Shown: in pieces, positions 16,096-21,063 of the stretch
Numbering within the stretch: the first letter of the stretch is position 1
Layout of the letters: every line of letters starts with the position of its first letter
IMG/VR virus record: IMGVR_UViG_3300022890_000117
Location: 1-21,438 of that record
Reading direction: 5' to 3' (one strand)
Origin: a virus
DNA length: 21,438 bases
Translations under genes and position numbers: made by a program
The notes under the pieces: generated by a model
What the model saw: only the letters and a program-made list of their open reading frames with translations
Told to the model about the DNA's origin: nothing
Databases searched by the model: none

Positions 16096-16686
16096 ATGAT
16101 AATTCATAATTTCAAACAACTGTCTCCTGAATGGTTTAAAATTAGAGAATGTAAAGTCACAGCTTCACATGCAGGGGCAATAGCATCGCAAGGAGCTGGG
16201 CTGGATAGCTACATTTATAAAATGATGGCAGAACATTATTTAGAAATAGAAATAAAACATTTTGAAAATGAACACACAAAAAGAGGGATAAAATTAGAAG
16301 GAGTAGCGAGGAGATTATATGAATTAGACTATGGTGTCAAAGTGGATGAAACTGGATTTATAGAATACAATGAATTTGTAGGATGTTCCCCTGATGGACT
16401 TATAGGAAAAGACGAGGGGGCAGAAATTAAATGCCCTTGTAATAAAAACTATAAAAAAATACTTGAAACTGGAAAAGTGGATAACAACTGGATATGGCAA
16501 TGCCAAATGAATTTACTTATAACAGGGAGAAAAAAATGGAATTTAATTATATTCAATCCGAACTTTGACAAAGCAATGACAGTAATGGAAATATTGCCTG
16601 ACAAAGAAAAATTTAATAAACTTTTAGTTGGGTTTATCATAGCCGAACAAAAAATATTATCTATTAAGGATAAACATAATAAATAA
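16096..16686 (+). CDS. YqaJ / lambda-type 5'-3' exonuclease
   Basis: The 196-residue protein has the YqaJ/lambda exonuclease marks: SPEWFKIRECKVTASHAGAI at 10-29, TKRGIKLEGVARRLYE (E68 at the metal site), FVGCSPDGLIG (D100), GAEIKCPC (E110, K112) and WQCQMNLLITGRKKW. These residues form the metal-dependent nuclease core. It would resect dsDNA ends to give ssDNA for the ERF annealase encoded next to it. The ATG at 16096 follows the ERF stop by six bases and is preceded by ACT, again with T at -1. Confidence 0.9.
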   Translation: MIIHNFKQLSPEWFKIRECKVTASHAGAIASQGAGLDSYIYKMMAEHYLEIEIKHFENEHTKRGIKLEGVARRLYELDYGVKVDETGFIEYNEFVGCSPDGLIGKDEGAEIKCPCNKNYKKILETGKVDNNWIWQCQMNLLITGRKKWNLIIFNPNFDKAMTVMEILPDKEKFNKLLVGFIIAEQKILSIKDKHNK

Positions 16687-16688
16687 AT

Positions 16689-17249
16689 ATGAAAATTACA
16701 AAAGACCAAATCTTGGAAAATTTAGAGCTAGTAAAACAATATTTAGAAGAAGGAAAAAAAGAAACTCCAAGTTCAGAAGTAGCAATAAAAAGTTATAAAT
16801 ATATGTGTGATATAAATTGGGATGAAAAAGAAGAAATTTTAATTAAAGACAAACCTGAAAAAATGATTTTTGTTAATCAAAAGTTTGCTGATAATTCAGA
16901 ATTTGGAGATAATTGTGTTTTTATAAAGTGTAAATTTGGAAGTTGGTGTGAATTTGGAAGTAGGTGTTATTTTGGAAGTGGTTGTAAATTTAGAAGTGGT
17001 TGTGAATTTGGAAGTGGGTGTGAATTTGGAAGTAGTTGTTATTTTGGAAGTGGTTGTAAATTTGGAAGTTATTGTAAATTTGGAAGTTGGTGTTATTTTG
17101 GAAGTGGTTGTAAATTTGGAAGTTGGTGTGAATTTGGAAATTATTGTGAATTTGGAAGTTGGTGTGAATTTGGAAGTAGTTGTTATTTTGGAAGTGGTTG
17201 TAAAAAACAATTCCCTTATTGGGATGAAAATGGAAAACAAAATAATTAA
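16689..17249 (+). CDS. cysteine-ladder hexapeptide-repeat (left-handed beta-helix) protein
   Basis: The 186-residue protein has an N-terminal helix (MKITKDQILENLELVKQYLE), a short linker, then a repeat. From F83 to K172 there are 15 hexads of the form F-G-S-x-C-x (one with R for G, one with N for S), preceded by degenerate FADNSE and FGDNCV units. The pattern fits the left-handed parallel beta-helix motif [LIV]-G-x-x-[STAV]-x with Phe and Cys in the inward places, giving about five coils with stacked Phe and Cys ladders. There are 18 Cys in all. I do not recognise a function; possibilities are a rigid scaffold, metal or redox ladder, or a DNA-mimic like pentapeptide-repeat proteins. The N-terminal helix is shared with the gene at 18026. 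The repeats are 18 bp long in DNA and likely expand and contract. Confidence 0.75.
   Translation: MKITKDQILENLELVKQYLEEGKKETPSSEVAIKSYKYMCDINWDEKEEILIKDKPEKMIFVNQKFADNSEFGDNCVFIKCKFGSWCEFGSRCYFGSGCKFRSGCEFGSGCEFGSSCYFGSGCKFGSYCKFGSWCYFGSGCKFGSWCEFGNYCEFGSWCEFGSSCYFGSGCKKQFPYWDENGKQNN
16935..17201 (+). repeat. coding 18-bp tandem repeat
   Basis: Fifteen 18-bp units of the type TTTGGAAGTxxxTGTxxx encode the F-G-S-x-C-x hexads. The block coding for CYFGSGCK recurs near 16965, 17037, 17091 and 17181, so units appear to have been shuffled by unequal recombination rather than made independently. Confidence 0.9.
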
Positions 17250-17264
17250 TTTAAATAAATAAAT

Positions 17265-18029
17265 ATGGATCAAGAAATGGAAACACAAATAAGTAATATC
17301 GCAAAATTTGATATTACAAAAGCCGAGTTAGAAAAAGAAGTAGAGGCAACAAAAAAAATAGATTTAGAAGATTTAGAAGATAAAAATCAATTAGAATTAG
17401 TAGGAATTGCTAAAAATGATTTAAGAACTATTGAAATAGAAATAGAAAAAACAGGAAAATCTTTTCGTGATGTATTTACTAAAATGAATAAGGGAATAAT
17501 GGCGAAACAAAAAGAATTATTAGCTATTACAAATCCTGAAGTTGAAAGACTAAAAGGATTATTAGACGAGGCAAAAGAATACGAGGACAAACAAAGCAGA
17601 ATAAAATTACTTCCTTATAGAAAAGAAAAATTAGCAGAAATAAATGTAAGTAGAACTGAGGACTTTTTACTTAAATTAAATGATAAAGATTTTGCTGATT
17701 TTCTAATGTCTGAAACTGTGCTGTTTAATCAAAATGAAATTTCAAAAAAAGAGATTATTATAGCTGAAAGAGAAAAAGAAGTTGAATTAGAGAGAGCTAA
17801 AATTCAAGCAGTTGAAGGAGAAAGACAAAGACTAGAAGATGACTTAGCTGAAATAAAACAAGCCGAAGAAATTAGCAAAAAATTAGAAGAAGAAGATAAA
17901 GACTACCAAGCATTTTTATCTGATAATAACTATGACGAAAAAGAGCATAGACTTATTAGAGAAAATGGAACAGTAAAAATTTATAAGGTAATAGCAATTT
18001 ATAAATATGAAGTAAAAAATAAAATATGA
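17265..18029 (+). CDS. coiled-coil phage protein, DUF1351-like
   Basis: The 254-residue protein is strongly helical with heptad-like charge pattern: an N-terminal segment (FDITKAELEKEVEATKKID), a middle with KTGKSFRDVFTKMNKGIMAKQKELL and PEVERLKGLLDEAKEYEDK, and a long coiled coil about residues 160-215 (EREKEVELERAKIQAVEGERQRLEDDLAE). This is the shape of phage proteins commonly encoded beside ERF/exonuclease genes and thought to assist recombination. The C-terminus (KIYKVIAIYKYEVKNKI) is beta-like. Its TGA overlaps the next start. Function is not known; partner of the annealase or exonuclease is inferred from place. Confidence 0.6.
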   Translation: MDQEMETQISNIAKFDITKAELEKEVEATKKIDLEDLEDKNQLELVGIAKNDLRTIEIEIEKTGKSFRDVFTKMNKGIMAKQKELLAITNPEVERLKGLLDEAKEYEDKQSRIKLLPYRKEKLAEINVSRTEDFLLKLNDKDFADFLMSETVLFNQNEISKKEIIIAEREKEVELERAKIQAVEGERQRLEDDLAEIKQAEEISKKLEEEDKDYQAFLSDNNYDEKEHRLIRENGTVKIYKVIAIYKYEVKNKI

Positions 18030-18496
18030 AAATAACAAAAGAAGAAATCTTGGAAAATTTAGACCAAGTAAAAAAATATATAAGTGAAATAGATAATAAA
18101 CCAAAAACAGAAGAAAGAACAAAATATTGGTTTATAGATGAAGTAAATAAAAAACAACTAAGTCTATGGGAAAATGATAATATTGATAATAAAAGACTAC
18201 AAAACCACAACCTCTATCTAATTGTAGAAGATTGCGATAAACAAATAGCTAAAAACGAAGCACTAAACAAAATCAAAACTTTCATAAAAGATAATTTTGA
18301 CACATTTGTACCTGATTGGGAAGTTGAAGATGAAAATAAATATAGTATATATTATGATTATAAAGATGAAGAATGGGGAATAGAATATAATTATTATTGT
18401 AGAAAATTACATTTACTACCTTACCTAAAATCAATAGAACAAGCAGAACAACTTATAAAAGACTGCGAAAAAGAATTAGATATTTTAATTAAATAA
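18026..18496 (+). CDS. paralogous early protein, shared N-terminal tag and C-domain
   Basis: The 156-residue protein is a mosaic. Residues 1 to about 20 (MKITKEEILENLDQVKKYIS) are nearly the same as the start of the hexapeptide-repeat protein at 16689, while residues about 60-156 closely match the protein at 20575: LYLIVEDCDKQIAKNEALNK, IKTFIKDNF, DYKDEEWG and QLIKDCEKELDILIK. The middle YWFIDEVN segment resembles a small phage domain with a Tyr-rich strand. No catalytic motif is visible. It overlaps the coiled-coil gene by ATGA. I do not recognise a function; duplication with module exchange is seen directly. Confidence 0.6.
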   Translation: MKITKEEILENLDQVKKYISEIDNKPKTEERTKYWFIDEVNKKQLSLWENDNIDNKRLQNHNLYLIVEDCDKQIAKNEALNKIKTFIKDNFDTFVPDWEVEDENKYSIYYDYKDEEWGIEYNYYCRKLHLLPYLKSIEQAEQLIKDCEKELDILIK

Positions 18497-18498
18497 AT

Positions 18499-18942
18499 AT
18501 GTACAACAAATTAAAAAAACTTATACAAAAAGCAGTGCCAGAGATTATGGAATTGAAGTTTGGGTGTGAGGTAAATACAAATTTAAAAACAAGTTTAAAA
18601 CATAATAAAAGTTTTAAAGTATCAAAATCAAAAATAGTAGGCAAAGGAGAATGTAAAAATTTTCATATAGGAATATGGGAATGTATATGGTTAGAAGTAC
18701 CACAAAATACATTAAAAATACTCGGTCGCCCTATTACTCTTGCAGATGTTTTAATTGCTCTTAATAAAAAAAAAGATGATGATTATTGGTATTCTTGTAC
18801 AACAGAAGGAGAGATTAGAAAAGAATGGAATATAATTGGAAGGGAACATCACGGTATTGAAAGTTGTGGTTGGAATTTAAAAGAAGATTTAGATAATCAA
18901 TCAGATGAAGTAATAGAATTTTTATACAGTTTAATCAAATAA
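18499..18942 (+). CDS. conserved-type phage protein of unknown function
   Basis: The 147-residue protein begins MYNKLKKLIQKAVPEIMELKFGCEV, followed by a basic beta-rich part, then LKILGRPITLADVLIALN and an end with WNLKEDLDNQSDEVIEFLYSLI. This pattern, including GRPI-x-LADVL and the DNQS end, recurs in phage hypothetical proteins as far as I can recall; I cannot name a function. It starts two bases after its neighbour's stop, with AAT before ATG. It contains several Cys and Trp residues but no recognisable metal site. The 67-base gap after it holds a weak GCTAA/TTAGC hairpin at 18969-18982. Confidence 0.55.
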   Translation: MYNKLKKLIQKAVPEIMELKFGCEVNTNLKTSLKHNKSFKVSKSKIVGKGECKNFHIGIWECIWLEVPQNTLKILGRPITLADVLIALNKKKDDDYWYSCTTEGEIRKEWNIIGREHHGIESCGWNLKEDLDNQSDEVIEFLYSLIK

Positions 18943-20274: not shown

Positions 20275-20578
20275 AAATGCAGTAAATTTAGGTAAACTAA
20301 GCTGGGAAAAAAGAAAAAAAACAATGAACAAAAAAGAGAGGTCAGAATACATGAGTAAAATGGCAAAAACAAAATGGGATAAAATTAAAAAAAATGAAGG
20401 ACTTTTGATAAACATAGTTGAAGAAAGAAAGCTAGTATCAAGCAATATGTGTGGAAGTAGTGATGAATTTTTTCAAGCAATAGGACTTGCTTTATATTTA
20501 GCTAATAATAAACAGGCTCTTTTAATCAGAAATACTTTTAAATCAGACTGGAGTATATTTTTAAACTTACAAGTATGA
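20264..20578 (+). CDS. small basic early protein
   Basis: The 104-residue protein has a very basic first half (NLGKLSWEKRKKTMNKKERSE, then YMSKMAKTKWDKIKK), like KTKW-type segments of plasmid and phage proteins, and a helical second half with SSDEFFQAIGLALYLANNK. I do not recognise a function. It begins inside the HNH gene (11-base overlap) and its TGA overlaps the next ATG. A DNA- or RNA-binding role would fit its charge but is inference. Confidence 0.5.
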   Translation: MKDKNAVNLGKLSWEKRKKTMNKKERSEYMSKMAKTKWDKIKKNEGLLINIVEERKLVSSNMCGSSDEFFQAIGLALYLANNKQALLIRNTFKSDWSIFLNLQV

Positions 20579-21063
20579 AAAACTACATCTACCTAGACGG
20601 TAAAAAAATAGAGATTTCAGATGAAACTGCTGAAAATCTTACAAAACAATTTAATAAACCAAAAACAGAAGAAATAGAAGAAGGAACAGAATATTGGTAT
20701 GTAGATGTAGATAATGAAAAAGACCGTTATCGATGGAATAATGATAATTATGATAACAATATTTTAAAAAACCATAATCTTTATCTAAACGTAGAAGACT
20801 GCGATAAACAAATAGCTAAAAACGAAGCATTAAACAAAATCAAAACTTACATAAAAGATAATTTTGAAGAGTTTTTGCCTAATTGGGATGATGAAAATGA
20901 AGATAAGTATAATTTATATTATGATTATGAAGATGAAGAATGGGATTATTGCTCTAATGGTAATTTTAGAGAATTATTTTTACTACCTTTCCTAAAATCA
21001 GACGAACAAGTAGAACAAGTTATAAAAGACTGCAAAAAAGAATTAGATATTTTAATTAAATAA
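20575..21063 (+). CDS. paralog of the 18026 protein with a different N-terminus
   Basis: The 162-residue protein starts MKNYIYLDGKKIEISDETA, a short domain often seen at the front of phage early proteins, followed by TEYWYVDVDNEKDRYRWNND. From about residue 65 it matches the 18026 protein almost throughout: NHNLYLNVEDCDKQIAKNEA, LNKIKTYIKDNF, YYDYEDEEW, QVIKDCKKELDILIK. At DNA level a core of about 70 bases (20790-20864) is nearly identical to 18223-18297, so duplication or recombination is recent. Function is unknown. It overlaps the preceding gene by ATGA. Confidence 0.6.
   Translation: MKNYIYLDGKKIEISDETAENLTKQFNKPKTEEIEEGTEYWYVDVDNEKDRYRWNNDNYDNNILKNHNLYLNVEDCDKQIAKNEALNKIKTYIKDNFEEFLPNWDDENEDKYNLYYDYEDEEWDYCSNGNFRELFLLPFLKSDEQVEQVIKDCKKELDILIK

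Follow-up and report, generated by a model that had tools for sequence, protein, structure and literature searches.

A gene on a 21,438-base IMG/VR virus fragment (the window, that is, the whole stretch of DNA that was analysed) encodes a protein made largely of near-identical six-residue units built on Phe and Cys. The locus raises the question of what fold such a protein would adopt, how it is related to other phage proteins and what it could do for a phage.

The repeat array and its predicted fold

The encoded protein contains 18 Cys, and its residues 83-172 form 15 contiguous, in-register hexads of the type F[GR][SN]xCx (Table 1). Thirteen of the 15 read exactly FGSxCx; Arg replaces Gly in the hexad at 101-106 (FRSGCE) and Asn replaces Ser in that at 149-154. 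Amid the degenerate leading units, residue 72 carries an extra FGxxCx that is not in register with the array. The maximum reached in 20,000 shuffles of the protein was four FGxxCx motifs, compared to the 15 observed, so chance is excluded. At the DNA level, TRF reported an 18-bp array of 15.2 copies (16929-17201) with a 72-bp, four-hexad higher-order period. ORF translation, TRF and shuffling confirmed the 15 hexads, the 18 Cys in 186 residues and the 18-bp units that the initial annotation had described. Codon use over the 15 units was nearly uniform (TGT 15/15, TTT 15/15, GGA 14/15 and AGT 14/15), and the differences between units fell nearly all in the two codons flanking Cys, namely GGT, TGG, AGT, TAT, AGG or GGG before it and GAA, AAA or TAT after it. 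His is absent from the whole protein, the hexads follow one another without intervening loops, and the net charge of the helix is about zero, likewise near zero in the family. Two other long open frames cross the array, one antisense (16896-17288, minus strand) and one in a shifted frame (16936-17262, plus strand). They are by-products of the 18-bp repeat, and orf129 within orf229 of Streptococcus phage Sfi19 is probably the same kind of artefact.

Table 1. Features of the Phe/Cys repeat gene in the window
Feature	Position	Strand	Basis or remark
Phe/Cys hexapeptide-repeat protein gene, 186 aa	16689..17249	+	ORF call; Pfam Hexapep above cut-off
N-terminal leader MKITKDQILENLELVKQYLEEG	16689..16754	+	Start of an LPD5-like gene carries similar DNA (91% identical)
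Conserved N-terminal segment INWxxKExxLIKDKPxKxIFxNQxFADxSEFG and degenerate leading units	16809..16928	+	Common to L003 only
18-bp tandem array with 72-bp higher-order period, encoding 15 F[GR][SN]xCx hexads	16929..17204	+	
C-terminal cap KQFPYWDENGKQNN	17205..17249	+	C-x4-P-Y-W cap; without GCFxGT domain

The Pfam Hexapep model (PF00132) matched the window protein with 34 bits, above its gathering cut-off of 27, and the profile search matches included LpxA, LpxD and eIF2B-epsilon. When compared to the pattern [LIV]-[GAED]-x2-[STAV]-x, the window hexads agree in register and in Gly, and their core residues are Phe and Cys, which occupy the two inward-facing positions of hexapeptide helices. 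The sequence thus places the protein in the superfamily of hexapeptide repeats (left-handed beta-helices), with Phe and Cys as an unusual core. It shares with LpxA, LpxD, GlmU, eIF2B-epsilon and dynactin p25/p27 the six-residue period, the inward positions i and i-2 and the Gly after the large core residue. It differs from them in that Phe/Cys replace LIV/STAV, loops and a catalytic His are lacking and the units are nearly identical at the DNA level. The HMM search that the initial annotation had proposed against hexapeptide and pentapeptide families supported the first family, whereas the pentapeptide model (PF00805) gave no match to the window protein, whose repeat period is 6. Pentapeptide-repeat proteins (Qnr, MfpA and AlbG) are likewise solenoids, in which position i holds Phe or Leu and position i-2 a small residue, but they have a period of 5 and an acidic surface. 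Neither the bactofilin model (PF04519) nor the YdcK-like model (PF18836) matched the window protein.

Structure prediction, another check proposed at the outset, gave an AF2 model with a confidently predicted six-residue-period beta-solenoid at residues 61-172 (pLDDT 81-96) and low confidence for residues 1-60, and for a family representative it gave a pLDDT of 92 and an alpha/beta C-terminal domain. Yet neither model had a match among solved structures (PDB) at E<=0.001. The window solenoid superposed on no solved left-handed or hexapeptide helix, and its best weak matches were pentapeptide-repeat proteins, with AlbG, Qnr and MfpA among the weak Foldseek matches (TM at most 0.30, not significant). 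AF2 yields confident but unrealistic solenoids for perfect and near-perfect repeats (PMC11795689). Because of this over-prediction, and because the model superposes on no solved structure, the assignment to the hexapeptide class rests on the sequence evidence. In that form, as a hexapeptide beta-solenoid class with Phe and Cys at the inward positions, the beta-helix suggested by the initial annotation is supported by sequence; a left-handed course and its coil number of about five would be putative. A lag analysis of the core substitutions for a three- or four-hexad coil revealed no significant period once duplicates were removed.

Relatives and genomic surroundings

We searched viral and genome contigs with a degenerate DNA pattern coding for four F-G-x-x-C-x hexads in a row, which yielded 67 stretches in the former and 43 in the latter, many of the genome-contig stretches being chance repeats in other frames. 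Phe/Cys arrays are encoded on about 60 phage contigs. True members carry the leader MKxYTQEEFDALPVVDGxxQCPTGDYSxI followed by 6-40 hexads, and most of them end in a 70-residue C-terminal domain with a GCFxGT motif. The window protein has neither this leader nor this domain. Its nearest relative, ORF 20-553 of contig L003 (IMGVR_UViG_3300031331_000003), also lacks the GCFxGT domain and has the N-terminal segment, the hexads and the PYW cap in common with it. The two are 63% identical as proteins and 80% identical in DNA, but the L003 gene differs in its leader peptide and has unrelated neighbours. The C-x4-P-Y-W cap is further common to a subtype formed by L029, L037, L041 and L056.

Among cultured phages, solenoids of A-x-V-x-G-x hexads are found in Ruminococcus phiRM10, Mannheimia 587AP2, Bacteroides BF766P1, Streptococcus Sfi19 and Vibrio 1.139, and in the first three of these a GCFxGT domain follows the solenoid. 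They match YdcK (PF18836; solved structures 2f9c and 2pig). These YdcK-like solenoids (phiRM10 gp34, Mannheimia phage gp43 and Sfi19 orf229) are likewise encoded by phage early-region genes with varying array length, and the C-terminal GCFxGT domain of the phage relatives is common to most Phe/Cys proteins. They differ in having a Val/Ala core and another N-terminal domain. In Aeromonas phage AeroV_348, the unit ASVG[EK][RWG] corresponds to CSFG[EK][RWG] with Cys and Phe changed to Ala and Val, so that the most plausible reading of the Phe/Cys array is that of a variant with an exchanged core. The PHROGs of the Phe/Cys proteins and of their cultured-phage relatives are all of unknown function, the GCFxGT solenoid family corresponding to PHROG 7964/20532, and within the collection of papers that was searched, no functional study turned up for phage hexapeptide solenoids, ydcK or orf229.

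Upstream of the window gene lie the recombination genes for RecA, ERF (PF04404) and YqaJ (PF09588), and downstream are encoded a predicted coiled-coil-like protein without Pfam match and an LPD5-like protein. The initial annotation had placed the gene in a recombination operon. It does follow ERF and YqaJ, which are early-type genes, but such an operon is not supported as a meaningful context in view of L003, where the gene sits between the terminase/portal side and an unrelated early region and where no homologue of the window ERF or YqaJ was detectable in the contig. A search for a close relative with conserved neighbours found none, and the neighbours across the family were generic early genes (replication and nucleotide metabolism). 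Val/Ala homologues adjoin recombination genes in the Mannheimia phage and in Sfi19, which we take to be where early cargo is normally located. Because the nearest relative sits among unrelated genes, the window gene looks like a mobile accessory cassette rather than a fixed member of a recombination operon, and a conserved operon role with ERF/YqaJ was rejected on the same ground.

Proteins with unrelated bodies have exchanged two short N-terminal leaders (window 16678-16742, 18013-18100 and 20575-20645; L003:20-88; L238:18563-18628). MKITKxxILENL... starts the Phe/Cys gene and an LPD5-like gene, and MKNYIxLxGKKIExSxET starts a second LPD5-like gene and the L003 Phe/Cys gene. The window and L238 copies at 16678-16742 and 18563-18628 are 91% identical in DNA over 66 bp. 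The LPD5-like paralogues at 18026-18496 and 20575-21063 are 62% identical over 147 residues and have different leaders. In most window ORFs an A/T-rich sequence such as AATAAATATG precedes the start codon and a Shine-Dalgarno-like motif is rare; the A/T-rich upstream sequences may hint at the host group.

Variation within and between arrays

Arrays with diverged synonymous sites retained Phe at 97%, Cys at 88% and Gly at 85% of the in-register positions. Since the core was kept despite this divergence, the constraint acts at the protein level, and the core of old arrays is under purifying selection. In 26 arrays, that of the window included, which span genomes of 27-59% GC, the third bases of Cys, Phe and Gly showed zero variation. 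The codon before Cys was variable in 25 of them; the exception, L055, presented no variation anywhere and lacks the family leader and domain. Allele changes in the 26 arrays amounted to at least 72 at the two first bases of the codon before Cys, 38 at the variable E/K position and 20 at the residue after Cys. In a set of 58 arrays that were not selected for their result, diversity at the first base of the codon before Cys exceeded that at the four-fold Gly third base in 55 arrays and fell short of it in two, and 30 arrays were polymorphic only at the former and none only at the latter, with units that are related by descent rather than independent and a codon preference that damps synonymous change. 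In the 24 units of phiRM10 gp34, Ala, Val and Gly are each encoded by a single codon, and the units vary only as W/R/Q, S/Y and D/N. Orthologue pairs showed few changes and no clear excess before Cys.

The frozen core codons together with the variable residue before Cys point to diversification of an exposed position. Other possible sources of the excess before Cys are a hotspot of mutation or, in place of an arms race, selection that keeps identical repeats from associating with one another. A diversity-generating retroelement seems an improbable source of the variation: no RT gene was noticed among the window ORFs and the codons before Cys do not look adenine-driven.

We also compared repeat number in related phages, as the initial annotation had suggested, and found that sister phages differ. 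L013 and L044 are exactly five hexads apart with flanks 99.94% identical, L040 and L068 differ in unit number, and so do the Vibrio phages 1.139.A, 1.139.B and 1.034.O with flanks 99.3-100% identical (100% between 1.139.A and 1.139.B, whose arrays are different), all of them as read from short-read assemblies of repeats, in which assembly error is possible. The solenoid gene of 1.139.B (L241:2947-3750) has stop codons inside its array and is annotated as two genes, with flanks identical to those of 1.139.A, and this interruption is either a real break or an assembly error. Deposited 'CRISPR spacers' lie inside the hexapeptide-repeat genes of 1.139.A (L239:3994-4133), 1.139.B (L241:3155-3496) and 1.034.O (L242:3155-3475), and look like false CRISPR calls.

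Candidate functions

The initial annotation had named an anti-host or a scaffold protein as candidates. It is because of the evolution of the arrays that we favour a diversifying binding surface. We assign a probability of about 0.4 to a reading in which the protein has no enzymatic role and acts as a rod, its core constant and its outer surface diversifying and binding some macromolecule, probably from the host or a rival element. The gene would represent a mobile accessory cassette of the early region that encodes a hexapeptide-repeat beta-solenoid without enzymatic activity, in which Phe and Cys would fill both inward positions of each hexad and form a space-filling core, a larger version of Val/Ala. 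From the hexapeptide register, the residues just before Cys (at the corner) and just after it (on the face) would point outward and constitute the working surface. The array would grow and shrink by unequal exchange, its outward residues would diversify faster than synonymous sites, and the resulting surface may bind a macromolecule that itself keeps changing, most likely a protein of the host or of a rival element. That the protein serves to bind, and what kind of partner it binds, is what we infer. The array signature, with core codons frozen, the residue before Cys diverse and the length changing in sister phages, makes a binding function testable, and the arrays offer a natural repeat scaffold of near-identical units. 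A broader claim would be that phages possess binding rods that work inside the cell and can be re-programmed, with a Phe/Cys or Val/Ala core that stays fixed, exposed residues diversifying under selection and a length changing between sister phages, in effect a modular binder against changing host defence proteins. We regard it as doubtful; the alphabet of exposed residues is small and recurrent (E/K and W/R/G/Q).

The chief rival to the binding rod is a passive spacer or scaffold, which we consider somewhat unlikely. Here a rigid rod would set the distance of the N-terminal region (and of the GCFxGT domain in most relatives) or assemble phage or host components, and repeat heterogeneity would be selected only against mis-registered folding or aggregation. 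A spacer would fit the range of array length from 6 to 40 units while the end domains are conserved, and the fact that some solenoids carry a different end domain, of the C-x4-PYW type. Imperfection of repeats can protect a protein from aggregating and would do so here, but adjacent or stacked hexads were no more different from each other than shuffled ones. Moreover, a ruler would not tolerate the length differences between sister phages, and a tally of neighbours across the family revealed no constant partner gene.

That the protein mimics DNA or another nucleic acid, as do the pentapeptide-repeat gyrase inhibitors Qnr and MfpA, is improbable. The proximity of recombination genes and the weak Foldseek matches to such proteins would suit a mimic, but these matches were not significant, the period is 6 and not 5, and the helix is neutral here and nearly so in the family. 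We give very little credence to a functional Cys ladder, which the initial annotation had advanced for metal binding or disulphides and which might also act as a thiol buffer. The 18 Cys are regularly spaced and the CCCH zinc finger matched below threshold (19.4 bits versus a cut-off of 25.8), but there is no conserved His, older arrays replace Cys by Ser, Gly, Val or Ile, and the equivalent array of AeroV_348 has an Ala/Val core, so that this claim is disfavoured. A hexapeptide acyltransferase, to which sub-threshold LpxD-type HMM matches and the labels of relatives (acetyltransferase or putative acyltransferase) would point, is hardly credible and largely refuted, since LpxD and the other enzyme models all scored far below cut-off and both the catalytic His and the coil-interface loop are missing. 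Phe/Cys relatives are currently filed as 'unknown function', 'acyltransferase' or 'polymer-forming cytoskeletal protein', and the Phe/Cys-core variant of the hexapeptide solenoid to which they belong is now defined and is spread over many phages.
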